A stretch of 64,000 bases of DNA from assembly GCF_001428845.1 (NCBI RefSeq), contig NZ_LMIU01000003.1, positions 67,243 through 131,242 of the forward strand, given 5' to 3'. Below, piece by piece: positions 46,537 through 60,311 of this stretch (its first letter is position 1; the number at the start of each line of letters is the position of its first letter). The position numbers were made by a program, and so were the translations under genes. The notes below the pieces were generated by a model, which saw nothing but the letters and a program-made list of their open reading frames with translations, was not told the origin of the DNA and did no database searches. The DNA comes from Achromobacter sp. Root83 (GTDB lineage: Bacteria; Pseudomonadota; Gammaproteobacteria; Burkholderiales; Burkholderiaceae_B).

Positions 46537-46896
46537 ATGCAGGCGCTCCGTCCACCCCTTCCAGAAATATATAGGTATTTGTTTTCCCCGCCGATGCGTC
46601 AGACTCCCGCGCTGGTGGCCGCGGGTCTGGCCGACGCCATTCCGGACCACATCAAGGCCTGCCGCCCGCCCTATTCGTTTGAACGGTTGCAGCCGAGCGA
46701 CGTGCTCACCGCCTTGCACGGCGCCGGCTGGTCGTTCGGCAGCGACCGCATGGGACAACTGCTGATCAGCAAGGGCGCCGACCATCTGACCATACGGCCT
46801 GGCGTGCAGGTCGCATCCGGATGCATCACGGAAGCGGATGTCCGATATCTGGATGGATATGTGGCGGTCGTCACCGGCGATGAGGTGCATGAATGA
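46537..46896 (+). CDS. Small protein of unknown function coupled to a glycosyltransferase
   Basis: 119 residues if started at 46537; ATG 46594 (MRQTPALV) is an alternative. The stop overlaps the next start as ATGA, which argues for real translation and coupling. The sequence contains FERLQPSDVLTALHGAGWSFGSDRMGQLLISKGADHLTIRPG in its second half and has no signal or membrane segment. I do not recognise a family. It may be a partner of the glycosyltransferase or only a translated leader. Confidence 0.5.
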   Translation: MQALRPPLPEIYRYLFSPPMRQTPALVAAGLADAIPDHIKACRPPYSFERLQPSDVLTALHGAGWSFGSDRMGQLLISKGADHLTIRPGVQVASGCITEADVRYLDGYVAVVTGDEVHE

Positions 46897-47999
46897 CCGG
46901 CGAAACCCGGCGCCCGCTGCGCGTCATCCACTCGGAAGCCGCTACCAGCTTTGGCGGGCAGGAGCATCGCATCCTGAAAGAAATGCGGGGCATGCGGGAT
47001 CGCGGCCATGTCATGGAAGCCATTTGCCAACCCGGCAGCGGGCTGGCGCTGCGGCTGACGGACGAAGGATTTGCCGTGCACACGATGCCGATGGACGGGG
47101 CGGCAAATTATCTTCGGGCGATTCATCGCATCCGGCGGCTTCTGGCCCGCGGCCGGTACGATGTGCTCAATACGCATAGCCGCCGCGATACCGTCATCGC
47201 CGCGGTGGCGGCGCGCCTGGCTGGCGTGCCGCTGATCGTGCGCAGCCGGCATCTGGCAAAGCCGCCGGGCTCGCTCTGGAGCTACACCGGCCTTCCGCAC
47301 AAGGTGATTGCCGTCAGCGAGTACGTCGCGCGGCAACTTCTCGACCGTGGCGTGAAACCCGGCGACGTTGATACGGTGTTTGACGCGGTCCAGCCCCTGG
47401 CGCGCGCGGCCCGGTCGACCTTGCGCGACGAACTGGGCATCGGCCACGATGCCGTGGTGATCGGATGCGTCGGACATTTGCGGCCTCAGAAGGGGCATGG
47501 CCTGTTGCTGGCCGCGGCCGCGCCGCTGCTGAATCGTGGACCCGACCTGCATCTGGTCGTTGCGGGCGAAGGGTCGCAGCTCGATAGTCTGCAGGCGCAG
47601 GCACGCAGCCTCGGATGCGAGGGGCGGGTTCACTTCCTGGGACGCCGGAACGATATCGAAAATGTCCTGTCCGGCTGCGACGTCTTCGCGCTTGCTACCG
47701 AGTTCGAGGCGCTCGGCACGTCCTTTATCGAAGCCGCTGCCTGCGGCCTACCCATCGTAGGCACGGCGGTGGGAGGCGTGCCCGAGATCGTCAAGCACGC
47801 AGAGACCGGCCTGCTGGTCCCGTATGGCGATGTCGAGGCGCTACGCGGCGCCCTGGCCGCGTTGGTGGCGGACAAGGCGCTGCGAGAACGCATGGGCAGG
47901 GCTGGGGAGGCCTACGTTCGCGGGGAAAAGAAATTCAAGATCACCGGAATGGCGGAAGGCATGGAATCCGCTTACAGACGCTGGCTGGCGCGTACCTAG
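46893..47999 (+). CDS. Glycosyltransferase family 4 protein
   Basis: 368 residues with the GT-B fold. The N-terminal half opens RVIHSEAATSFGGQEHRILKEM, typical of GT4 acceptor-domain starts. The C-terminal half has VIGCVGHLRPQKGHGLLLAAA, LVVAGEGSQL, and the nucleotide-sugar motif EFEALGTSFIEAAACGLP (E-x7-E). It probably acts at the cytoplasmic face on a lipid- or polysaccharide-linked acceptor. It is isolated from other polysaccharide genes and ends at a strong terminator at 48021. Confidence 0.92.
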   Translation: MTGETRRPLRVIHSEAATSFGGQEHRILKEMRGMRDRGHVMEAICQPGSGLALRLTDEGFAVHTMPMDGAANYLRAIHRIRRLLARGRYDVLNTHSRRDTVIAAVAARLAGVPLIVRSRHLAKPPGSLWSYTGLPHKVIAVSEYVARQLLDRGVKPGDVDTVFDAVQPLARAARSTLRDELGIGHDAVVIGCVGHLRPQKGHGLLLAAAAPLLNRGPDLHLVVAGEGSQLDSLQAQARSLGCEGRVHFLGRRNDIENVLSGCDVFALATEFEALGTSFIEAAACGLPIVGTAVGGVPEIVKHAETGLLVPYGDVEALRGALAALVADKALRERMGRAGEAYVRGEKKFKITGMAEGMESAYRRWLART

Positions 48000-48102: not shown

Positions 48103-48205
48103 AACGTTAGAGTCTCGCCTGGAATGAAGTTGCGGCTTTGGGCCGCGGTTGGCAACGGCTTGCGTTTGCCGCGCCGGTACCGACTTCGGCAAAGCAAAAA
48201 TCTAT

Positions 48206-49615
48206 ATGAACACACTGAGTCACATCGTGCGCAGAGAATCCGGGCTGCCCGCGGTTCTTAGCGGAAGGCAGATGTCGATGGTCGCCTTCGGCACCGTCAT
48301 CAGCTACGGACTCGTCTCCGGTAGCGCCTTCCCGCTGCTGGCGGCTGGTCCCGCCGCGGTGCTGGCCTATCTGGCCGCGGCGCTGATAGCGATATCGCTG
48401 ATGGCCTGCCTGAGCCGTATCGCCAGCGCTCATCCGACGCCCGGCGCTTTTGGCTCCCTTGCCGAAGGCTATCTGGGCGCCACCGCGGGGTTCATGGTCC
48501 GCGCGGCGTACTTCGTTTCGCTCGTGCTGATCATGGGCACGGAAGTGACGCTGCTCGTGCCCGTGCTGAATGCCTGGTTGCCGAATGTTCACACCGGTCC
48601 GCTGCTTGTCGCCGTATTCGTGGGGCTCGCCCTGGTGAACCTGCACGGAGCCAGAACTTTCGCGCGTAGCGAAGTTGTGCTGTCGGCGCTGAAGATCCTG
48701 GCCCTGGCGGGGCTCATCGCCATGGCGTGCTACTACGCGGCGTTTGGCACGCCATCGCGGGCGCAGGCGCAGTTTGATGTCGTGGCCGCCATTCGGGCCG
48801 CGCCCTTGCCCGGCGTCTGGCAAGCCTTTGTTCTTGCTGTGCTGGGCTACGTCGGTATCGAGTCACTGGCCATCGTGGCGGGCGAGACCAACGCGTCCGC
48901 GCAGGCGCTGCGGCGCAGGATGCGGGTCACGTCCCTGGCGGTCGTGGCGCTGACCATTCTGGCCGTGACGGCGTCCGCCGCCCTGGTGTTCAGCGGCACG
49001 GTGTCCCTGTTCGAGATTCCCTTCAGCGCTTTGCTTGGCGTGGCGGGTTTGCCGTGGCCGAAAACGCTGTTTGGCGCATTGCTGCTCGTCACCGTGCTTT
49101 CGGTGCTCAACAGCCAGATGTATTGCGCGTCGCGAATGCTGTTCAGCCTGGCGCGCGCGGGGCAGGCCCCGTCGGCGTTCGGCCGAGCGTCGCCGCGCGG
49201 TCCCGCGCCGGCCGTTCTTGCGACCGCCGTGCTGGCGCTCCTGGTGGTCCTTGCCGGCGCGTGGTTTCCCGGCCAGACCTATGCGGTTGCAACCTCGATC
49301 GCGACAGCCGGCCTGCTGTTCGTCTGGCTGGCGATATTCCTGACCTATATCGGATATCGCCGCGGGCAGGCCGCAACGGCGAAGTTCCATCCGGCAGGGC
49401 ATCTGGACTCGGCGGCGGCGGTGGCGGGCGCGCTGGTGGTAGCGACGATAGCGGCGTCGACGTGGGTGATCGAGTCCTTCTCCCTGACATTGCGCATTGG
49501 CCTTCCGTTCATGGCGCTTCTGTGGATCGGCCATGCGCTGCGGGGGCGTCGCGGATTGCCCCGTGTAGAGCGGGCAAACACAAACCGCCTCTGCGCGGAT
49601 CAACTGATTGGGTGA
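48206..49615 (+). CDS. APC-family amino acid permease
   Basis: 469 residues with about twelve membrane segments. The start region (MSMVAFGTVISYGLVSGSAFPLLAAGPAAVLAYLAAALI) matches the first APC helices, and QAFVLAVLGYVGIESLAIVAGETN is the helix-6 region. The substrate is not readable; relatives carry amino acids such as GABA, proline or aromatic ones. No ribosome site precedes the ATG; the nearest upstream sequence holds a 7-base inverted repeat (TTTGCCG / CGGCAAA). The next gene follows after 5 bases. Confidence 0.88.
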   Translation: MNTLSHIVRRESGLPAVLSGRQMSMVAFGTVISYGLVSGSAFPLLAAGPAAVLAYLAAALIAISLMACLSRIASAHPTPGAFGSLAEGYLGATAGFMVRAAYFVSLVLIMGTEVTLLVPVLNAWLPNVHTGPLLVAVFVGLALVNLHGARTFARSEVVLSALKILALAGLIAMACYYAAFGTPSRAQAQFDVVAAIRAAPLPGVWQAFVLAVLGYVGIESLAIVAGETNASAQALRRRMRVTSLAVVALTILAVTASAALVFSGTVSLFEIPFSALLGVAGLPWPKTLFGALLLVTVLSVLNSQMYCASRMLFSLARAGQAPSAFGRASPRGPAPAVLATAVLALLVVLAGAWFPGQTYAVATSIATAGLLFVWLAIFLTYIGYRRGQAATAKFHPAGHLDSAAAVAGALVVATIAASTWVIESFSLTLRIGLPFMALLWIGHALRGRRGLPRVERANTNRLCADQLIG

Positions 49616-49620
49616 CCCGT

Positions 49621-50067
49621 ATGAGCAAGCTAGGCATCTGGGCCGATTTTGAAATGAAGATCGTGTGCAACGAATTGCGCCGGCAGAACCTCCTGTCTTT
49701 TCGGGATTGGGTCTACGACGCGAGCCATTGCGCAAAGACGTTCTCGCCGACGAGCTACCTGGGGTATCGCGTCTGGGCGATTCCGTGTCTGCGGCTGATG
49801 CGCAAGTATCCGCCTTTGGCCGCGGGCCTTGCGGTGGTGGTTCGATGGATGGTCGCCGATTTGAAGTACGAAATCGGCGTCAGCGCGCAGCCTCACCTGC
49901 CAGGCCGCATCGTGCGGCGCGGGCTGTTCTGGCCGGGAAACTGGCTCCTGGGCAGTCTTGCGCGCTTTGCTCGAATGCAGGTTGGCGCTCCGTCATGCCG
50001 AATGCGGACGCCAGATTACCGGCTGTCCGTCGGACCGCCATCGTCAGTATTTTTTTCCTCAACATAG
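49621..50067 (+). CDS. Protein of unknown function downstream of the permease
   Basis: 148 residues. The opening MSKLGIWADFEMKIVCNELRRQN and the central SPTSYLGYRVWAIPCLRLMRKYPPLAAGLAVVVRWMVADLKYEI look like real protein, with one possible hydrophobic helix near residue 75. The last ~30 residues (ARMQVGAPSCRMRTPDYRLSVGPPSS) look low quality, as if the natural end had been lost. The start lies 5 bases after the permease stop, so translation may be coupled. The stop is only 15 bases before the first pilin gene. No family recognised. Confidence 0.55.
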   Translation: MSKLGIWADFEMKIVCNELRRQNLLSFRDWVYDASHCAKTFSPTSYLGYRVWAIPCLRLMRKYPPLAAGLAVVVRWMVADLKYEIGVSAQPHLPGRIVRRGLFWPGNWLLGSLARFARMQVGAPSCRMRTPDYRLSVGPPSSVFFSST

Positions 50068-50082: not shown

Positions 50083-50613
50083 ATGAAAAAACACCTCTTG
50101 AATGCCCTGGTCGCCGCCAGCTTTGCCGCGATCGCCGGCACCGCCGCCGCGGATACGGGCAACATCTCCTTCCAAGGCGAGATCACCACGTCGCCGTGTT
50201 CGATTGGCGGTGGCCAGCAGGGCACCGACATGGTGGTTCCGCTGGGCAGCATCTCCACCAATAACTTCAGGGCCATTGGCGACAAAAGCCCGGAAGCGCC
50301 TTTCACCATCTCGCTGCTGAACTGCGACACGGCGGTCGCGCAATCGGCTGCGATCTCTTTCCGCGCCGGCGCGGGCAGTGTCGTCAGCAGCCGCCTGCTT
50401 GGACTGGAAAACGGCAGCGGCGCGCAAGGTGTTGCCATCGGCCTGATCGACGAAGCCGGCAATGCCGTGGTTATTGGCGGCGCGGCGACCAGCTACGCGC
50501 TGATCGACGGCACCAACAACTTCAATTTCAAGGCGTTCTACGAATCCACCGCGGCAACCGTTACCGCGGGTCCGGCCAACGGCCGCGCGGTATTCGAAGT
50601 CACCTACTCGTAA
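50083..50613 (+). CDS. Type 1-like fimbrial major subunit (pilin)
   Basis: 176 residues from ATG 50083. A Sec signal peptide (MKKHLLNALVAASFAAIAGTAAA) precedes the pilin domain. The donor-strand region DTGNISFQGEITTSPC is followed by the disulfide pair (SPCSIG and LLNCDTA), and the C-terminus GRAVFEVTYS has the penultimate Tyr and terminal strand read by the chaperone. A hairpin after the gene (50681-50703) may make it the most abundant subunit. Confidence 0.93.
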   Translation: MKKHLLNALVAASFAAIAGTAAADTGNISFQGEITTSPCSIGGGQQGTDMVVPLGSISTNNFRAIGDKSPEAPFTISLLNCDTAVAQSAAISFRAGAGSVVSSRLLGLENGSGAQGVAIGLIDEAGNAVVIGGAATSYALIDGTNNFNFKAFYESTAATVTAGPANGRAVFEVTYS

Positions 50614-50680
50614 ATTGCCCGCCTGCCTGTGGAAGACGGGCCAGGCAAGCGCCGAGCCCAGCAGTAAACCGCAGCAGCAC

Positions 50681-50703
50681 GGAGCGGCGCCATGCGCCGC
50701 TCC
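50681..50703 (+). other. Hairpin between the two pilin genes
   Basis: A perfect 10-base stem (GGAGCGGCGC / GCGCCGCTCC) with a CAT loop and no T-run lies 67 bases after the first pilin. It likely protects that mRNA or limits read-through. Confidence 0.65.
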
Positions 50704-50771
50704 GCCTCCCCCCTTCGCGGCGGTTGCCGCTTGCCGCGAACGGGAGCAAAGCGGGGGCACCGGATGACGAT

Positions 50772-51314
50772 ATGAATCTCAACACTGGAAATGTCGCCGT
50801 CGCCACGGTTCTCCTTGCCGCGGCTTGCGCGGCGTATGGCCAGACGGCCACCTTAAACATACAGGGAAGAATCACGAGCACCCCGTGCACCATTTCGGTC
50901 GGCTCGGTTTCCATGGGCGATGTGCCCATTTCGGAATTCAGCGGATCGAACACGCCGGATCAGAAGTACTGGAAGAATTTCACGGTCTCTTTGCAGAGCT
51001 GCGAGATGTCGACCCTTCAAGCCGCCAGCCTTCGCTTCAACGGCACGACGGCGTTCGGAGACGCCAGCATTCTTGCGCTGACACCCGGCTCGGACAACGC
51101 GACCGGATTCGGCGTGCAGGTGCAGACCAGCGACACGACGCATGGCTCCGGCGTCAAGGTGCGAATGGACGGTAGCCAGTCGTACGCCTTCAACGTGAAT
51201 TCGGCGCAGAACACGTTCCAGTTCACGAGCTACTACATCAGCGCGCCGGGCGCGGCGCAAATCAGATCGGGAACGGCCAACGCCACCGCGACGATAACGC
51301 TGTCGTATTCCTGA
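50772..51314 (+). CDS. Fimbrial subunit, second pilin
   Basis: 180 residues from ATG 50772. A signal peptide (NVAVATVLLAAACAAYGQ) is followed by the pilin fold: ATLNIQGRITSTPCTISVGSVSMGDVPISEF, a second Cys in SLQSCEMST, and the C-terminus ATITLSYS with penultimate Tyr. It is only distantly similar to the first pilin and may be a minor or adaptor subunit. Confidence 0.9.
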   Translation: MNLNTGNVAVATVLLAAACAAYGQTATLNIQGRITSTPCTISVGSVSMGDVPISEFSGSNTPDQKYWKNFTVSLQSCEMSTLQAASLRFNGTTAFGDASILALTPGSDNATGFGVQVQTSDTTHGSGVKVRMDGSQSYAFNVNSAQNTFQFTSYYISAPGAAQIRSGTANATATITLSYS

Positions 51315-51415
51315 TTCAGGTCCGGCCCCCTTCGGGCAATGCGCCAGCGAACCGGCCATGCCTTTCACTTTCACTCTTAAGCCGGATCGCTGGTAGCGAA
51401 CCGCAGGTTAGCCCC

Positions 51416-52153
51416 ATGAACAGCATTATCAAACGCTTACTCCCCGTGGTTGCCGCGATCGGCGTATTGGCGGGCAATGCCGCCGAAGCCGCCGTGCAGC
51501 TCTCCACCACCCGCGTCATCATCAACGAGAAGGACAAGAACGTTTCGGTTTTTGCCAAGAATCATGGCGCCGATCCCTTCGTCGTTCAAGCCTGGATCGA
51601 TGGCGACTCCGAAGAAATGGAAACGCCATTCTTCGTCACGCCGCCCTTGAGCCGGTTCGACGGCAATGCCGAGCGCAGTCTCAATATCACTCGGGTGGGC
51701 GCGGGCCTGCCTGGCGATCGGGAAAGCTATTTCTGGTTGAACGTGCTGGAGATTCCGCAGAAGAAGGCGGGCGGCGACAACAGCCTGACCCTTGCCACGC
51801 GCACGCGCATCAAGCTGTTCTATCGGCCGGAAGCGATCCAGAAGATGCCGCGCGGCGCCGATCTGGTGCAGTGGTCCTGGGGGAAGGACGGCAAGCAATG
51901 CCAGCTTGCCATCAAGAATGCCTCGGCGTTCACCGTCAATTTCGCGGCCATCGACATTCCCGGCGAGGCCGCCGGCTTTGGGCGCACGATCGTTGCCAAG
52001 CCGCTGGCCACGACCCAGGTGCCGCTTGGCAAGTGCCCAAGCGGCGAGGTCCGTGCGAAGGCGCACGTCGTCAACGATTACGGCGTGGTTGAAACGTGGG
52101 CCGAGGTTTCCGTGCAACCCGAGGCCGGCGGCCCGGAGGGGAGCCGCAGGTGA
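51416..52153 (+). CDS. Periplasmic pilus chaperone (PapD-like)
   Basis: 245 residues with a signal peptide ending near GNAAEA. The first Ig-like domain has AVQLSTTRVIINEKDKNVSVFAKNHG with an Arg in the subunit-anchoring position and PFFVTPPLSRFDGNAERSLNITRVG. TRTRIKLFYRPEAI marks the G1 strand and linker. The second domain follows. The stop overlaps the usher start by GTGA. Confidence 0.94.
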   Translation: MNSIIKRLLPVVAAIGVLAGNAAEAAVQLSTTRVIINEKDKNVSVFAKNHGADPFVVQAWIDGDSEEMETPFFVTPPLSRFDGNAERSLNITRVGAGLPGDRESYFWLNVLEIPQKKAGGDNSLTLATRTRIKLFYRPEAIQKMPRGADLVQWSWGKDGKQCQLAIKNASAFTVNFAAIDIPGEAAGFGRTIVAKPLATTQVPLGKCPSGEVRAKAHVVNDYGVVETWAEVSVQPEAGGPEGSRR

Positions 52154-54654
52154 AAGGAATAGGGAATCGCGCGACGGTCAGCCTGATGGCGGCCGCGATT
52201 CTTGTCTTTCCCGCATGCAGCTTTGCCGGCGAGCCGGGCCTGGACGCGGCCACCTTCGACAGCAGCTTTCTGCATCGGAGCAAGCCGGGCACCGACGTGG
52301 ACTTGTCGGTGTTCGCCTATTCGAATCGGACATTGCCGGGCAAAAAATCGGTCTTGATTAATTTGAACCGGCAGGCGTTCGGCATGCGCGAAATCGAGTT
52401 CGTCGCCGTCGAGGGAATGGACGACGGGCAGCCCTGCCTTCCCGTTTCCGTGCTGAAAGAGATGGGCGTGAAGGTCGATGCCTTTCCCGCCCTGCAGGCG
52501 CTGGATTCCGCCAACTGCCAGGACGCATTGAAGGCGCTGCCGTCGGCCGGGACGCGCTTCGATCAGGACAGGAACGTGCTGGACGTGTCCATCCCGCAGG
52601 CGGCGCTGGACCGCAAGGCCCGGGGCACGGTCGCGCCGGCGCTGTGGGATAACGGCACGACCGCATTGTGGTCGTCGTACCGGCTTACGCACAATGCCGT
52701 TCGCGCGCCTGGCGGGCAGGGCGGCGGCACGGCCAGCACTACATTCGCCAATTTTCGCAATGGTTTGAACCTGGGCGCGTGGCGCCTGCGGGCGAATGGC
52801 AGCTATTACGACAGCGCGGAACGATCGGATTGGGACTGGAGCGATCTCTACGCCGAGCGCGATGTCGCGCCGTGGCGCGGCTGGCTGCGACTGGGAGACA
52901 GTTCGACGCCGGGCAATATATTCAATGCCTCCCGTTTCCGCGGAGCGCTGCTGCAATCGGATGACGGGATGCTGCCGGATAGCCTGCGCGGTTACGCGCC
53001 GGTGGTTCGAGGCATCGCGCCTTCCAGCGCCAAAGTGACCGTGCGCCAGAACGGCCATGCGATCTATACGACGTTCGTGCCCGCGGGCCCGTTCGTTATC
53101 GACGATCTCTATTCCACGCCGGGCGGCGGGGATCTGGAAGTCATCGTCGAGGAACTCGGCGGCCGGACGACACGCTCCGTTCAGCCGTTTTCGGCCCTGC
53201 CGACGATGTTGCGCGAGGGCACCTGGAACTACAGCCTGGCGGCGGGCGAGCATCGCCCGGCCTATCTGGACGAGCGTCCGCTGATGGCTCAACTGACGTT
53301 CGCGCATGGCCTGCCTTGGGGCATCACGGCCTATGGCGGATGGACGAGCGCCGAGGGCGCCTATCATGCGGGCGCCGCGGGCATGGCCCTCAACCTGCGC
53401 CGGATGGGCGCGGTGTCCGTCGACGTGACGAGTTCGCGTTCACAAGGCGCCGCCGGCGAAAAGCTGGTCGGGGCGGCCGCCAGGGTTCAATACGCCAAGA
53501 CCTTTCCAGGGATGGGCACCGATCTGACGCTGGCGGGGTACCGGTACAACTCCGATGGCTATCGCAGTCTGAACGACGCCATGCGCGACCGCTCGCGGCG
53601 CGACTCGTACCCGGGTTACGAGCGGCAGCACGAGTATCAGCTCTGGCTATCGCAGCGGATCGCGGATATGGGTTCGCTGTCCTTCAACTATTACGGCATT
53701 GCCTATCGGAACGCGCCGCGCAATGCCTCGTTCCTGCAGGTTTCGTATTCCAGCGCGATCGGCCGGGTGGGCTATGCGCTGAACTATGGCGTGAACCGGA
53801 GTCCCTGGCAGGACCGCGAGTCGACCGTCATGCTGACGCTGAGCATACCGCTGGGTAGCAGGCACACCGCCAGCTATACGATGAGCCGCACCCAGGGTCA
53901 GGGCACGAGCCACGACGCGAACGTCAGCGGTGCGCTGACCGATGACTACTCCCTGACGTATGCCGTCCAGGGAGGCGTGACGAATGGTTCTCAGGCCGGC
54001 AACAGCCGGCGAGGCTATGCCTCGATGGGGTACGCGTCGCCGGTGGGGCTTGCCAATCTGAGCCATGCGTCCAATTCGGGGGCTTCCAACACGAACATAG
54101 ACCTTAGCGGCGCCGTGGTGGTGGATCGCAAGGGCGCGCTGTTCGGACAGTCCATCGGAGAGACGGCGGTCATCGTGGAGGCGCCGGGCGCCGCTGGCGT
54201 GAAGGTGGATTCCTATCCGGGCGTTCGCACCGACGGGTCGGGCCGGGCACTGGTGCCCTATGCGACGCCCTATCGCGAAAACCGCATTTCGTTGTCGCCC
54301 GATTACGACGATCCAAATGCGACGCTTGCGGAGAACGTCGCCACCGTCGTCCCGACGCGCGGCGCGATCGTGGTCGCGAAATTCGAGACGGAACTGGGCC
54401 GCACGCTACTGGTCGTGCTCAAGAACGCGTCCGGCGCGGAATTGCCTTTCGGGGCGTCGATCTACGCTTCCGACGGCGAGCAGCGCGGTGTCGTTGGGCC
54501 CGTCGGACGGGCATGGCTGACCGGGCTGCAGGGGGCCAGCCGCTACACCGTGAAGTGGGGAGGCGAGCAAGCACAGCACTGCACATTTGATATCGATGTT
54601 TCGGCGGCCCAATCCGGCGTTGCGGAAACCATGAAGGAACTGACATGCGCCTAA
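52150..54654 (+). CDS. Outer-membrane usher protein of the chaperone-usher pilus
   Basis: 834 residues from GTG 52150, which overlaps the chaperone stop (GTGA) and follows GGGGAG; an upstream frame start would lie inside the chaperone gene. It has a signal peptide (VSLMAAAILVFPACSFA), N-terminal domain (DLSVFAYSNRTLPGKKSVLINLN), a 24-stranded barrel with the plug (VRQNGHAIYTTFVPAGPFVIDDLY is the plug-edge motif) and C-terminal domains with RGAIVVAKFETELGRTLL. The final Cys pair (HCTFDIDV and LTCA) matches usher C-termini. Confidence 0.96.
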   Translation: MKGIGNRATVSLMAAAILVFPACSFAGEPGLDAATFDSSFLHRSKPGTDVDLSVFAYSNRTLPGKKSVLINLNRQAFGMREIEFVAVEGMDDGQPCLPVSVLKEMGVKVDAFPALQALDSANCQDALKALPSAGTRFDQDRNVLDVSIPQAALDRKARGTVAPALWDNGTTALWSSYRLTHNAVRAPGGQGGGTASTTFANFRNGLNLGAWRLRANGSYYDSAERSDWDWSDLYAERDVAPWRGWLRLGDSSTPGNIFNASRFRGALLQSDDGMLPDSLRGYAPVVRGIAPSSAKVTVRQNGHAIYTTFVPAGPFVIDDLYSTPGGGDLEVIVEELGGRTTRSVQPFSALPTMLREGTWNYSLAAGEHRPAYLDERPLMAQLTFAHGLPWGITAYGGWTSAEGAYHAGAAGMALNLRRMGAVSVDVTSSRSQGAAGEKLVGAAARVQYAKTFPGMGTDLTLAGYRYNSDGYRSLNDAMRDRSRRDSYPGYERQHEYQLWLSQRIADMGSLSFNYYGIAYRNAPRNASFLQVSYSSAIGRVGYALNYGVNRSPWQDRESTVMLTLSIPLGSRHTASYTMSRTQGQGTSHDANVSGALTDDYSLTYAVQGGVTNGSQAGNSRRGYASMGYASPVGLANLSHASNSGASNTNIDLSGAVVVDRKGALFGQSIGETAVIVEAPGAAGVKVDSYPGVRTDGSGRALVPYATPYRENRISLSPDYDDPNATLAENVATVVPTRGAIVVAKFETELGRTLLVVLKNASGAELPFGASIYASDGEQRGVVGPVGRAWLTGLQGASRYTVKWGGEQAQHCTFDIDVSAAQSGVAETMKELTCA

Positions 54655-55817
54655 GCGCCAAGCCCATTCTTTGGGCGCTCGCCGGTCTCGGCTCGCCAAG
54701 CCGGAGATTCGCCGGACTTTGCCTCGCGCTTCTGGGCGCCGTGGCCGCCCCGCAGGCGGCGCTTGCGGGGCCGCTGGATTCCCGGGCGGTCAAATGCTCC
54801 GTCAACACGTCGGGCGGCAACGGGCCGAGCGGCATGCGCTATGAACCCTTTTCCTCGTATCAGTTCGCGCTGCCGTCGGGCAGGAGCTCCTTTGCCGCGC
54901 CCGCCCAGGCGGCCAGAGGCGAGGTGCTCTTTGCCGTGGAACGGTATCTTCCCGCGTTTGCCGCGGGCCAGCAGGGCAGGGTGGCTCCCTTGTACAACTG
55001 TCCGCCGGGGGCGATGGAGTATTTCTCCGGCAATGGAACGCTGGTGCCTGGAAGCGGCGACATCTACCGCACCAACATCGCGGGGATCGGCTACCGGGTG
55101 TTCTATTACCGGAATAGCCAGAGCAGCCAGACCGCCCCGGCGGTCTACACCAACAATTACGCAAAGGGCGTGCTGGTGTTCCCGTTCGATAACCCGAGTT
55201 TTGGCGCGAACACCAGAACCCGGATCGAGATCGTCGCCACGGGAGAGCCCATCGGCACCGGCACCCTGAATGCCGGCACCATCTACGCGCAGACCTGGAT
55301 AAGCGGCACGGGAGGGACGATACCGCCCGCCGGCCTGTACCGGGTTGCCCTGCAGGGCAACGTGCAGATCACGCGGCCCACCTGCACGGTGTCCAACCCG
55401 AGCGCGCTGAATCTGACGCTGCCGGATGCAACGCTTGCCGCCCTGAAGGGCGGGAGCGCCGCCGACGTGACGGCGACCACGCTTCAGGTGACATGCGCCG
55501 CCACGAGCACGGCGGCGCCCACCCTGTCGATTTCTGGAACGACGGTCACCGGCTATCCGTCGACGCTGGCCAATCAGGACACGACGTCAGCCGGAGCCAA
55601 GGGGGTGGGCGTGAGGCTGTGGGTGCACGATCCCGTGACCGGGAGCTTCCGGCTGCCGGAAATGGGGGTGGCCGAGAAGAACCTGGGTTCGGCGGTCGGC
55701 GCCGTGCCGACGACGACGTGGTCGTACCGCTTGGGAGCGAGCTACCTGCAGGTGGCGCCGGCTCCCACCGCCGGGGTGGTGCGCGCCACGGCGACGCTGA
55801 CGCTGTCCTATAGCTGA
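54645..55817 (+). CDS. Two-domain fimbrial tip adhesin
   Basis: 390 residues overlapping the usher end by 10 bases. It has an unusual long N-terminal region (MRLSAKPILWALAGLGSPSRRFAGL) before a signal peptide ending LAGPLDS. A receptor-binding domain spans about residues 45-215, followed by a linker and a pilin domain from QITRPTCTVSNPSALNLTLP to the C-terminus ATATLTLSYS. Two-domain adhesins cap chaperone-usher pili. Ligand specificity is unknown. Confidence 0.85.
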   Translation: MRLSAKPILWALAGLGSPSRRFAGLCLALLGAVAAPQAALAGPLDSRAVKCSVNTSGGNGPSGMRYEPFSSYQFALPSGRSSFAAPAQAARGEVLFAVERYLPAFAAGQQGRVAPLYNCPPGAMEYFSGNGTLVPGSGDIYRTNIAGIGYRVFYYRNSQSSQTAPAVYTNNYAKGVLVFPFDNPSFGANTRTRIEIVATGEPIGTGTLNAGTIYAQTWISGTGGTIPPAGLYRVALQGNVQITRPTCTVSNPSALNLTLPDATLAALKGGSAADVTATTLQVTCAATSTAAPTLSISGTTVTGYPSTLANQDTTSAGAKGVGVRLWVHDPVTGSFRLPEMGVAEKNLGSAVGAVPTTTWSYRLGASYLQVAPAPTAGVVRATATLTLSYS

Positions 55818-55833
55818 CGGGCCGGCGCCGCGC

Positions 55834-55864
55834 TTGGACCATTTTGCGCCCGATGCCTTATAGT
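55834..55864 (+). promoter_or_regulatory. Possible promoter before the acyl carrier protein gene
   Basis: TTGGAC (55834-55839) and TATAGT (55859-55864) are 19 bases apart, longer than optimal. If used, it would start transcription about 65 bases before the acyl carrier gene, separating it from the pilus operon. Confidence 0.3.
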
Positions 55865-55937
55865 GGTTTGGTTCGGTGCCCAGAGGGTTCATTCGTCGCT
55901 GCCCCCATAGATAGTTCTATTTTTTGGGAATTCGATC

Positions 55938-56321
55938 ATGCAAACCCAGCAGACCACGCCGGTTCTTCCGGCCCCCGGGATCCTGCGCGAAAAGCTCGCC
56001 GCCATCATCGCCAATGTGTGCCGATGCGAACCTGGACCGCTGCTTGAAGACCAGGAGTTCGCCGCCGTCATCACGCAGTTCGACTCGTTGGCGATTCTTG
56101 AGATCCTTCTCGAGATCGAAACGGAATTTCATATCCAGACCGACGACATGCTGCCCACCGACCACGCGGTCGGCGCTCAGGAAATCACAAGCATCTTTCC
56201 CACCAATCTCTCGGCCTTGATCGCCTATATGCACGTAGTCGTCGAGCGGGTCGCGGCGGGCCCCGCCGAGGGCAGCGCGGCGGCGCGCATGGCGCTCGCG
56301 GCCGCTCGGCGCAAGGACTGA
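55938..56321 (+). CDS. Acyl carrier protein-like protein
   Basis: 127 residues. The phosphopantetheine Ser is expected at Ser50 in ITQFDSLAILEILLEIETEF, which keeps the DSL motif and helix II of carrier proteins. It is longer than FabD-pathway AcpP (~78) because of an N-terminal leader and an Ala/Arg-rich tail (GSAAARMALAAARRKD). It lies 120 bases after the adhesin and 14 bases before a ketosynthase, pointing to a dedicated acyl-chain pathway. Confidence 0.82.
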   Translation: MQTQQTTPVLPAPGILREKLAAIIANVCRCEPGPLLEDQEFAAVITQFDSLAILEILLEIETEFHIQTDDMLPTDHAVGAQEITSIFPTNLSALIAYMHVVVERVAAGPAEGSAAARMALAAARRKD

Positions 56322-56335
56322 AGCGGGGACGGCTC

Positions 56336-57568
56336 ATGATGCAGCGCAGGAAAGTCGTCATCACCGCCATCGGCATGGTCACCCCGGTGGGCGGCAACGC
56401 CACGCAGACTTTCGACGCCCTGGTGGCGGGGAAGTGCGGCGTGGATGTCCATCGCGACAGCGGCATCGGGCGGCGCGTGGGCTATGTGCGCGCCGATATC
56501 GCCGCTGGCGTTCACCCGGCGCAGGTGCGCATGATGGACCGCGTCACGCTGATGGCGCAGTGCGCGGCCGGCCAGGCGATGGCGCAGGCGGATCTGGACG
56601 AGGCACAAAGGGCCAATTGCGGCGTCTTCGTGGGCACGGGTATCGGCGGTGTGTCGACCTTGTGCGAGGCGGTCGAGGCCTACCATGGCATCGTCCCGAA
56701 GCGGCCCCTGCTGGTGGTGCCTGCCACCATGCCGAACGCGCCGGCCGCGCATATCGCGCAGCAGCTCAAGTCCCTGGCGGAAGCGCAGACCTACACCACC
56801 GCATGCTCGGCGGGCGCCGTTGCCATCGGCGAAGCGTTCCGCCGCATTCGCGACGGCTACCTGGATATCGCCCTGGCTGGCGGCGTGGAGGCCATGCTGA
56901 CCCCGACGATCGTGGCGGCGTGGACCCAGCTGCATGTGCTCTGCGCGGACCCGGAAAATGGCGACGCGGGGAGCTGCCGGCCTTTCAGCCATCGGCGCAC
57001 GGGATTCGCCCTGGCGGAGGGAGCCGCGATGCTGATGCTGGAGTCGGCCGACCACGCCGCTGCCCGGGGTGCCGCGCCCATCGCGGAGCTCTGCGGCTAT
57101 GGCGTCAGCAACGATGGCACGCATCCCCTGCGTCCCGACTCCGATGGCCAGTCCCTGGCCATGTCGCGCTGCCTGGCCGATGCGGGCCTGTCGCCTGCGC
57201 AGGTGGACTATGTCAACGCGCACGCGACCGGCACGCTGGTGGGCGATCGCATCGAGACCGCCGCCATCAAGCGGGTGTTCGGCGAGCACGCGCGCAGCTT
57301 GCCGGTCAGCAGCATCAAGGGGGCGATCGGGCATACGATCGGCGCCGCCGGCGCCATCGAAGCCGCCGTGACCGCCATGGCGGTATCGCGCGGGATCGTG
57401 CCGCCCACGCTGTTCTTTGAATCCGGCGATGCCCAATGCGACCTGGACTACGTGCCTGGGACGGCGCGCGCGCTGCCGGCGCTGACGCTGGCGCTCAGCA
57501 ATTCGTTTGGCATGGGTGGCAACAATGCCGTCCTGGCGTTCCGCAAGGACGGGCACGGCATTTGCTGA
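56336..57568 (+). CDS. Beta-ketoacyl-ACP synthase (KAS I/II type)
   Basis: 410 residues, thiolase fold. The catalytic Cys157 is in TYTTACSAGAVAIGEA; the two His are His296 in NAHATGT and His333 in KGAIGHTIGAAGA, so the condensing triad is complete. FGMGGNNAVL near the C-terminus is conserved. It is coupled to the ACP upstream and differs from housekeeping FabF in context: no fabG/fabH/acpP neighbours. It probably extends or starts a special acyl chain. Confidence 0.92.
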   Translation: MMQRRKVVITAIGMVTPVGGNATQTFDALVAGKCGVDVHRDSGIGRRVGYVRADIAAGVHPAQVRMMDRVTLMAQCAAGQAMAQADLDEAQRANCGVFVGTGIGGVSTLCEAVEAYHGIVPKRPLLVVPATMPNAPAAHIAQQLKSLAEAQTYTTACSAGAVAIGEAFRRIRDGYLDIALAGGVEAMLTPTIVAAWTQLHVLCADPENGDAGSCRPFSHRRTGFALAEGAAMLMLESADHAAARGAAPIAELCGYGVSNDGTHPLRPDSDGQSLAMSRCLADAGLSPAQVDYVNAHATGTLVGDRIETAAIKRVFGEHARSLPVSSIKGAIGHTIGAAGAIEAAVTAMAVSRGIVPPTLFFESGDAQCDLDYVPGTARALPALTLALSNSFGMGGNNAVLAFRKDGHGIC

Positions 57569-57600
57569 CGGCCTGGGCCCCAGTCCGCAGGCAGGTTGCC

Positions 57601-58683
57601 ATGACCAAACCGAAGCTCGACGTTCGCACCGGACAGTACACCGGTCCGCTGGCGCGGGACGTTTTCCGGGTGCGCTTCATGCGCCGCTTCTACGATCCTG
57701 CCTTCCAGGCCGAGGGCGATGCGCTGGACCGGCTGGAAGCCATCGCGTGGGATGCCTACGAAGGAAGCCGCAAAGCGCCCATCACGGTGAAAGCCGGACC
57801 GGGGTATGCGGATCCCGAGTACGACCTGTCGGTGGAGTGGAAAGAAGCGCACGACCGCCTGGCGCGCGCGGCGGAGATCCAGAGCCAGCCGGAGACGCGC
57901 TCGCGGGTGCTGGTGGTCATCGCCGCGGCGCGCAACGATGGCACCTGTCCGGGGGAAGTCTCCAAGAGCTGGCGGCTTGCGCAGATCGTGCGGCACGAGC
58001 TGGAGTCGGCGGGCATGCTGGCCGACATGCTGGACCTGAGCCGTTTGACTTCCGAATACCAATACCAGATCCATCCTTGCAAGGGTTGCGTGTCCACGGC
58101 GATGCCGCTTTGCCATTGGCCGTGCAGTTGCTATCCCAATCATTCGCTGGGGCAGGACAACGACGCGATGAACGACATCTACGAGCAATGGGTTTCCGCG
58201 CACGGCGTGGTGCTGGTGGCGCCAACCTATTGGTACCAATCGCCGAGCGGCTTGAAGCTGATGATAGACAGGCTGGTGTGCGCCGATGGCGGCAACCCCG
58301 ATCCGACGTCGACCGCGGGCAAGGATGCGATGAAGGCCAAGCAGATCGAGATGGCAGGCTGGCCCTACCCGAAGCACCTGGCGGGCCGGGCCTATGGCCT
58401 GGTGGTACATGGCGACGTGGCGGGCATCGAGGATCACCGGCGCGCCCTGGGCGACTGGCTGGACTGGATGGGGCTGGTCGACGCGGGCGCATCGTCCCGG
58501 CTGGATCGCTATATTGGCTACTACGAGCCTTATGCCACCAGCCACGCCGAGCTGGATCAGGATCAGGCGGTGCAGGAAGAGGTGCGCAACGTGGCCAAGG
58601 CGGTCGCCCATTGCGTGCCGCTGCTGCGGGCCGGTCGGTGGGCGCCGGGTGCAGACGGCGTGCGCTCGCCCCGGCCGAAGTAG
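57601..58683 (+). CDS. Flavodoxin-like NADPH-dependent FMN reductase with cysteine cluster
   Basis: 360 residues from ATG 57601, 32 bases after the ketosynthase. The first ~100 residues are a unique leader. A flavodoxin-like fold follows: SRVLVVIAAARNDGTCPGEVSKS at the phosphate loop and VVLVAPTYWYQSPSGLKLMIDRL near 205-225, both FMN-binding motifs. Between them is a Cys-rich insertion with Cys160, 163, 171, 175 and 177 (HPCKGCV, PLCHWPCSCYPN), resembling iron-sulfur flavoproteins. It may supply electrons to the pathway of its neighbours; the link is inferred from position only. Confidence 0.78.
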   Translation: MTKPKLDVRTGQYTGPLARDVFRVRFMRRFYDPAFQAEGDALDRLEAIAWDAYEGSRKAPITVKAGPGYADPEYDLSVEWKEAHDRLARAAEIQSQPETRSRVLVVIAAARNDGTCPGEVSKSWRLAQIVRHELESAGMLADMLDLSRLTSEYQYQIHPCKGCVSTAMPLCHWPCSCYPNHSLGQDNDAMNDIYEQWVSAHGVVLVAPTYWYQSPSGLKLMIDRLVCADGGNPDPTSTAGKDAMKAKQIEMAGWPYPKHLAGRAYGLVVHGDVAGIEDHRRALGDWLDWMGLVDAGASSRLDRYIGYYEPYATSHAELDQDQAVQEEVRNVAKAVAHCVPLLRAGRWAPGADGVRSPRPK

Positions 58684-60117: not shown

Positions 60118-60311
60118 ATGTTCCAGCAGCACGAAATGTACGTGCAGCAGGCGGGAGTGAGGGCCAGGCACATCCCGTACAAGGGCGTGGGGCCGACGCT
60201 GCGCGAACAGGGGCTGGCGGTCTACGAAATTCGCAGACGGTGGCGTACTTCCGTTCTGAAATGGCGAAGTACGCGGCCGTCGTCAAAGGCGCGGGGCTGG
60301 AACTGATGTAG
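60118..60311 (+). pseudogene. Remnant of a Bug-family (TctC-like) binding protein
   Basis: Two fragments in different frames are recognisable. The first (60118 on, frame +1) contains ARHIPYKGVGPTL, the ligand-loop motif of Bug proteins. The second (60240-60311, frame shifted) reads VAYFRSEMAKYAAVVKGAGL and ends in TAG, matching the Bug C-terminus. Between them about 100 residues of the usual protein are missing and LREQGLAV is joined directly. The signal peptide and N-terminal domain are absent. It is an internally deleted, frameshifted relic. Confidence 0.7.

Follow-up and report, generated by a model that had tools for sequence, protein, structure and literature searches.

A chaperone-usher pilus clade with its own acyl carrier protein and ketosynthase suggests that a pilus and a special fatty-acid product are linked

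As a rule, chaperone-usher pili are regarded as self-sufficient fibres made of protein. Elsewhere in the bacterial envelope, e.g., in the aryl polyene and rhizobial AcpXL clusters, type II acyl carrier protein (ACP) and ketosynthase genes are devoted to one envelope product. Here, we describe a chaperone-usher pilus operon of Achromobacter sp. Root83 which is preceded by a small gene, referred to as X, and followed by the genes of a private ACP and a FabF-like ketosynthase (KAS). The operon lies in a stretch of 64,000 nucleotides, hereafter the window (G000:C3:67243-131242, from a genome of 6.2 Mb). In related genomes, X, pilin(s), chaperone, usher, adhesin, ACP and KAS form, in this order, a fixed unit hallmarking one clade of chaperone-usher operons. 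This arrangement suggests that a pilus and a special fatty-acid product are connected in a way not described before; no report of a pilus operon equipped with a private ACP and ketosynthase was found among the open-licence papers listed, which do not cover most subscription journals.

The ACP was searched for in 268 genomes of the bacterial family harboring the window, and its relatives were detected in 19 of them at 20 places, two of which belong to the window genome. A search for the window's genes around each of the 19 places outside the window gave, together with the window, 18 complete loci in 17 genomes from six genera, comprising Achromobacter, Bordetella and neighbouring genera (e.g., the copy L129 in G171, a genome matching Bordetella sp. 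BOR01). The order pilin(s)–chaperone–usher–adhesin–ACP–KAS was common to all of them, with the ACP–KAS pair situated directly behind the adhesin gene in 18 of 18. Hence, the locus type that the initial annotation, made from the window's letters alone, had thought undescribed is real and conserved, as the comparison of gene order in relatives indicated (18 of 18 loci, 17 genomes). As to the remaining places, L135 (genome G154) is a 4-kb contig bearing ACP and KAS, the usher being found on another contig of this broken assembly, and L138 (G163) is the single case of an ACP without a pilus, a divergent pair with identities of 32% (ACP) and 44% (KAS).

The usher, searched for with three candidates scored per genome, told the same story from the other end: all 19 places showing 44–100% identity occurred in the genomes possessing ACP–KAS, 18 of them adjacent to the pair and one on another contig (G154). 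At least 30 more distant places (identity up to 41%) stemmed from other pili, and neither ACP, KAS nor X was detected, at an E-value of 1e-3, in any of 20 such loci taken from these at least 30 and inspected over 15–16 kb each. The window genome possesses two full copies of the set, at C3 and C22. In the second copy (L122; G000:C22:83000-101000), the order is permease, X, pilus genes, ACP and KAS, with an extra pilin gene between the chaperone and the usher. The outer neighbours change between the loci (compared without L135–L137) while the gene block stays. Although the loci are not independent samples, the linkage is strong because it spans six genera, ACP identities down to 37%, two copies in one genome and changing outer neighbours; the association of this pilus with ACP–KAS is thus beyond chance.

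The spacing of the genes speaks for the same unity. The gap between adhesin and ACP amounts to −4 to 26 bases in seven loci and to 40–218 bases in the other 11, with the gene starts chosen automatically; the ACP and KAS genes overlap in 11 of the 18, and a gap figure of 413 for L124 is an artefact of its broken KAS. The 120-base gap in the window, which falls inside the range of the relatives, had been reported together with a weak promoter; the gap stands, while promoter-like sites occur in this region at chance level (2 observed vs. 1.6 expected). A single transcript for the set is likely. In five pairwise comparisons, some with dS values above 1, dN/dS amounted to 0.09–0.27 for ACP, 0.11–0.15 for KAS, 0.11–0.29 for X and 0.11–0.18 for the usher, and ACP and KAS each ranked under the usher in four of the five pairs. 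Purifying selection acts on each of ACP, KAS and X. The set almost certainly works as one functional unit, and the notion that the pilus and acyl genes are merely neighbours became unlikely in view of the constant position behind the adhesin, the gaps of up to 26 bases in seven loci and the ACP/KAS overlaps.

In the window, the set and its immediate neighbours are arranged as follows:
48149..49615, + strand: amino-acid permease (PF00324); an optional first gene, stopping 5 bases before X
49621..50067, + strand: X, 148 amino acids, predicted all-helical; present in 18/18 complete loci, 15 bases before the first pilin
50083..50613, + strand: first pilin (PF00419, Fimbrial, 82.9 bits)
50772..51314, + strand: second pilin (PF00419, Fimbrial, 60 bits)
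51416..52153, + strand: periplasmic chaperone, PapD-type (PF00345, PapD_N, 127.9 bits)
52150..54654, + strand: outer-membrane usher (PF13954, PF00577, PF13953), with a 4-base overlap with the chaperone gene
54645..55817, + strand: two-domain adhesin, MrkD-like receptor domain plus pilin domain (PF22003, PF00419), with a 10-base overlap with the usher gene
55938..56321, + strand: dedicated ACP with a C-terminal tail (Asp49-Ser50; weak PF00550 match; ACP fold)
56336..57568, + strand: FabF-like KAS with Met in place of the gate Phe (GMGG); N and C domains of ketoacyl-synt, Cys157/His296/His333
57601..58683, + strand: FMN_red-type flavoprotein, a neighbour and not a set member, starting 32 bases behind KAS

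The eight genes recognized in the initial annotation, from the first pilin to the flavoprotein, were placed correctly on the + strand, and Pfam bore out their coordinates and descriptions, including the complete chaperone-usher set from the two pilins to the adhesin. The sequence hallmarks of this class are present: Fimbrial-domain subunits, a PapD-type chaperone and an usher whose three parts score over the cut-off (PapC_N 127.6, Usher barrel 537.7, PapC_C 56.5 bits). The second pilin has no separate match in several relatives, and the permease precedes X in nine of the 18 complete loci, the window counted. The conserved gene X, directly upstream of the first pilin, had been missed.

The profile match of the ACP is weak in the window: PF00550 yields 18.6 bits on the window protein vs. 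a cut-off of 20.8, and an E-value of 1 or better is reached by 19 of the 20 members aligned. Still, the attachment site Asp49-Ser50, with the Ser following the Asp at the start of helix II, is invariant in 20 of 20. The AlphaFold model (pLDDT 81.1) retrieved ACPs as its first fold matches, with a probability of 1.00 and TM-scores of 0.69–0.70 by target, the best E-value being only 0.03. Among the 50 matches listed, 45 were titled ACP, the others being four mitochondrial desulfurase complexes and one designed scaffold.

The KAS was compared across 19 copies (the 18 complete loci plus L135), the alignment leaving out L138 and the two broken copies, L124 and L125. As the initial annotation had stated, all three catalytic residues are there: none of the 17 intact copies departs from Cys157, His296 and His333. 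The closest solved structures are FabFs, and the enzyme is 38% identical to the presumed own FabF of the window genome (at G000:C12) and falls under the curated fabF cut-offs (TIGR03150, 359.9 vs. 493.75; PRK07314, 363.6 vs. 387). The gate loop reads GFGG in six presumed FabFs of the family and GMGG in 17 of 17 KAS copies; loop 2 keeps the leading Asp of FabF, with DAHHIT changed to DGTHPL in 13 of the 17. The substrate gate of FabF is described as consisting of these two loops with Phe400 as the key residue, a position occupied by Val or Ile in a type I polyketide synthase (PMC7138838). From the gate change we infer a probably altered acyl selectivity of KAS. Both ACP and KAS look functional on the basis of their conserved residues and of the purifying selection on them, and active acyl-chain synthesis by the pair is quite probable. 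Elsewhere in the window genome (G000:C24:93027-96218), there are two further, closely spaced ketosynthase genes, which we take to be an aryl polyene-type pair.

X is the third set-specific component, present and freestanding in every one of the 18 complete loci. When the 268 genomes were searched with an X profile, the matches comprised the 18 set loci, two broken fragments on a single G169 contig and a marginal partial match in G001 (L135 and L138 were left out of the X alignment). Among 399 order-sample and 369 class-sample genomes, X was found only in the window genome itself, about 10 candidates being scored per genome. Neither an informative Pfam or NCBIfam match nor a sequence relative in the PDB was found; the AlphaFold model is all-helical (mean pLDDT 82.9) and its comparison with the PDB gave no informative fold match. 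X was also considered as a HlyC-type toxin-acylating enzyme: Pfam gave nothing suitable up to an E-value of 1, and the fold search was uninformative.

Distant relatives of X came to light on Rhizobium and Vibrio plasmids (10 records, 27–29% identity), where the X domain is C-terminal and encoded beside HlyD and a peptidase-domain (C39) ABC exporter. These proteins look like they start with a double-glycine-type leader, clear in Vibrio and less so in Rhizobium. From the plasmid relatives, the domain was traced further to gp49 of phage HMO-2011 and to viral contigs, where, among the best 80 of 87 relatives, 16 open reading frames were cut at the contig start, and the domain formed the last part of a larger protein in 64 of 64 uncut ones (median of 327 residues before it). 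An hhalign comparison of pilus X with the phage-type domain gave a probability of 98.9 and an E-value of 2e-17 over ~100 aligned residues, and Foldseek against viral structure models gave best E-values of 6e-6 and 8e-4 (TM-scores by query of 0.66 and 0.65), the latter for S4S2E0, a protein of 762 residues, i.e., the same length as gp49. Judging by these profile and model comparisons, pilus X is a freestanding version of the C-terminal domain of phage and exported proteins. As a separate observation, neither Pfam nor PHROG matched this helical domain of ~110 residues in those members that were scanned (L215, L216, L221, L229–L308).

A tentative mechanism can be outlined as follows. The private ACP would be loaded by the cell's phosphopantetheinyl transferase (AcpS); KAS would then condense malonyl-ACP onto an acyl group admitted through the altered gate. 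Since the block is devoid of genes for such steps, the housekeeping FabG/FabZ/FabI are proposed to complete the cycle, including the reductive steps, if any. The resulting special acyl-ACP would be used during pilus making, the first choice being the acylation of a pilus or envelope component which anchors or coats the fibre, and X, the only other operon-specific protein, may be a partner or a recipient. That the pair makes a private acyl-ACP used on the pilus or envelope is, in our view, somewhat probable; that the pilus or envelope is itself the acceptor of the acyl group is possible, with the balance slightly against it. The most specific version, in which a subunit, the adhesin or X would be acylated by a private chain derived from the operon's ACP and gate-altered KAS, with X as transferase, partner or recipient, seems unlikely.

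A number of observations weigh against the use of a private acyl-ACP on the pilus or envelope. The conserved block contains no acyltransferase, thioesterase, reductase or dehydratase, and no persuasive acyl-acceptor site was apparent in the alignments of pilins and adhesins, inspected by eye without control pilins. Likewise, the phage kin of X are, to our knowledge, not known to involve acyl groups. In fragmented genome G154, X was not found, and the broken X pieces in G169 (L228, G169:C45) lie near a contig end with no other set gene in 9 kb around them, perhaps representing a decayed or cut set. In the FabF study, the F400A variant of the E. coli enzyme crosslinked about like wild type, and better with C8 (PMC7138838). 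Furthermore, KAS is broken in two of the 19 copies, by a frame change in G036 (L124) and a stop in G081 (L125), while the pilus genes and ACP persist there; the set thus survives the loss of KAS in these genomes, at least for a time.

The phylogenetic trees point in the same direction. Trees of usher, KAS, ACP and X covered 16 of the 18 loci (L124/L125 with the broken KAS as well as L135 and L138 were left out) and had four pairs in common: window/L120, L132/L133, L128/L131 and L136/L137. In L134 (G031), however, usher and X join L132/L133 of the Achromobacter-genus lineage (supports 100/100 and 71/60), whereas KAS and ACP are placed away from them, on the L136/L137 side (100/100 and 97/97); in the KAS tree with outgroups, L134 splits off first, next to the other 13 (89/68). 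A weaker conflict concerns L122, with its usher grouping with L128/L131 (61/51) and its KAS with the window group (88/89). X thus goes along with the pilus genes, and ACP goes along with KAS; the two halves can recombine, or be exchanged as in L134, yet they stay together. Such different histories, along with the broken KAS copies, are what would be expected if ACP and KAS were passengers on a mobile pilus island without any pilus role. Still, passengers would hardly be kept in 18 of 18 complete loci under strong purifying selection, at a short gap to or in overlap with the adhesin gene in seven of them, and within a block which stays while its outer neighbours vary, so this explanation is highly improbable.

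Other rivals grant the pair an activity and differ in the fate of its product. Thus, ACP–KAS could make a diffusible small molecule or signal, e.g., a 3-oxoacyl compound, which is co-regulated with the pilus and never touches it. ACP and KAS alone suffice for 3-oxoacyl-ACP, the KAS gate is altered, and the permease found before X in half of the loci could supply an amino-acid conjugate. Yet a free signal need not track one usher clade, whereas the ACP search in the 268 genomes revealed a single case of the pair away from this pilus clade, in a divergent and differently placed form, and the block harbors no synthase or release enzyme; we regard a diffusible product as distinctly unlikely.

Alternatively, the pair could make a special membrane lipid or fatty acid required by the usher or for anchoring the fibre, with no covalent modification of the pilus. 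ACP/KAS sets extending envelope acyl chains are known, as in the rhizobial AcpXL region, which counts in favor of this explanation, as does the closeness of KAS to the chain-elongating FabF among the solved structures. The lack of a lipid acyltransferase in the block, and the presence of other ushers without an adjacent ACP–KAS pair in G000, G053, G156, G171, G183 and G233, make it rather unlikely. Overall, a private acyl-ACP used on the pilus or envelope remains the preferred reading.

The flavoprotein following KAS was initially counted with the acyl genes, and could in principle reduce or oxidise the KAS product as a further member of the set. It follows KAS on the same strand in the window (at 32 bases) and in L120; in the remaining 16 loci it was not found (some flanks are short), and in L121 KAS is directly followed by a nuclease. 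Of 200 genomes of the family, 15 carry the flavoprotein gene, which also recurs in at least 80 named loci elsewhere, mostly of Burkholderiales. No pilus or ACP genes of the window were seen, at an E-value of 1e-8, in 80 flavoprotein stretches, some of them short, one of these loci showing a KAS of 42% identity 8 kb away. In G171, ~340 kb of one contig separate the flavoprotein from the set, and L030 and L096 show the order flavoprotein–nuclease–lipoprotein without the set. As a member, it was hence rejected, and its involvement with the KAS product is hardly credible; recurrence of the ACP, KAS and flavoprotein genes in many genomes without a pilus, by which the initial annotation had proposed to judge its own grouping, was found for the flavoprotein only. 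The protein itself comprises 360 amino acids with a Cys-rich stretch and has no NCBIfam match.

As for the rest of the window, no dehydratase, ketoreductase or standard fatty-acid genes were found among the 20 products scanned, so that the reported absence of standard fatty-acid genes holds for the neighbourhood, the presumed FabF being located elsewhere in the genome. A glycosyltransferase (46893-47999) is situated nearby but is not conserved with the pilus/ACP/KAS set, and a short stretch at 60118-60310, resembling the end of a periplasmic solute-binding protein, is possibly a gene remnant.

If the proposed reading is true, at least one clade of chaperone-usher pili requires a private acyl product or occurs together with one, up to an acyl-modified pilus of this class; this may bring to light a so far unseen ligand, surface lipid or modification of the pilus. 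X, in turn, connects pili with an unnamed domain ending many phage proteins.

In comparison with known systems, the locus shares the pilins, PapD-type chaperone, three-part usher and two-domain adhesin with type 1-like chaperone-usher pili bearing a MrkD-type adhesin, and differs from other pili of this class in having X, ACP and KAS as fixed members, none of which occurred in the 20 other usher loci of the family. With FabF (KAS II), its KAS has in common the fold family, the Cys-His-His triad and the loop-2 Asp, and it is set apart by the GMGG gate, the sub-cut-off fabF scores and a private ACP. Aryl polyene clusters, which are defined by a dehydratase and a ketoreductase along with ketosynthase and ACP genes, and AcpXL clusters lack a pilus, while their reductase, dehydratase and acyltransferase genes are absent from the conserved block of the pilus set. 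Proteins of the HMO-2011 gp49 type carry the same domain as X, but at the end of a larger protein, whereas pilus X stands alone in each of the 18 loci.

The G163 cluster (L138:1934-8200, minus strand) likewise has adjacent ACP and KAS genes, but a C39 ABC exporter, HlyD and a short double-glycine open reading frame instead of a pilus. Its order is the short double-glycine frame, ACP, KAS, a protein matching acyltransferases weakly (17.5 bits vs. a cut-off of 209), the exporter and HlyD. The KAS of this cluster, 44% identical and the best non-pilus match among the seven genomes searched for KAS, has an AFGG gate and a long branch, its placement in the tree being uncertain. By analogy, a private acyl pair would accompany an exported product in G163 as well, and this product is possibly an acylated exported peptide.

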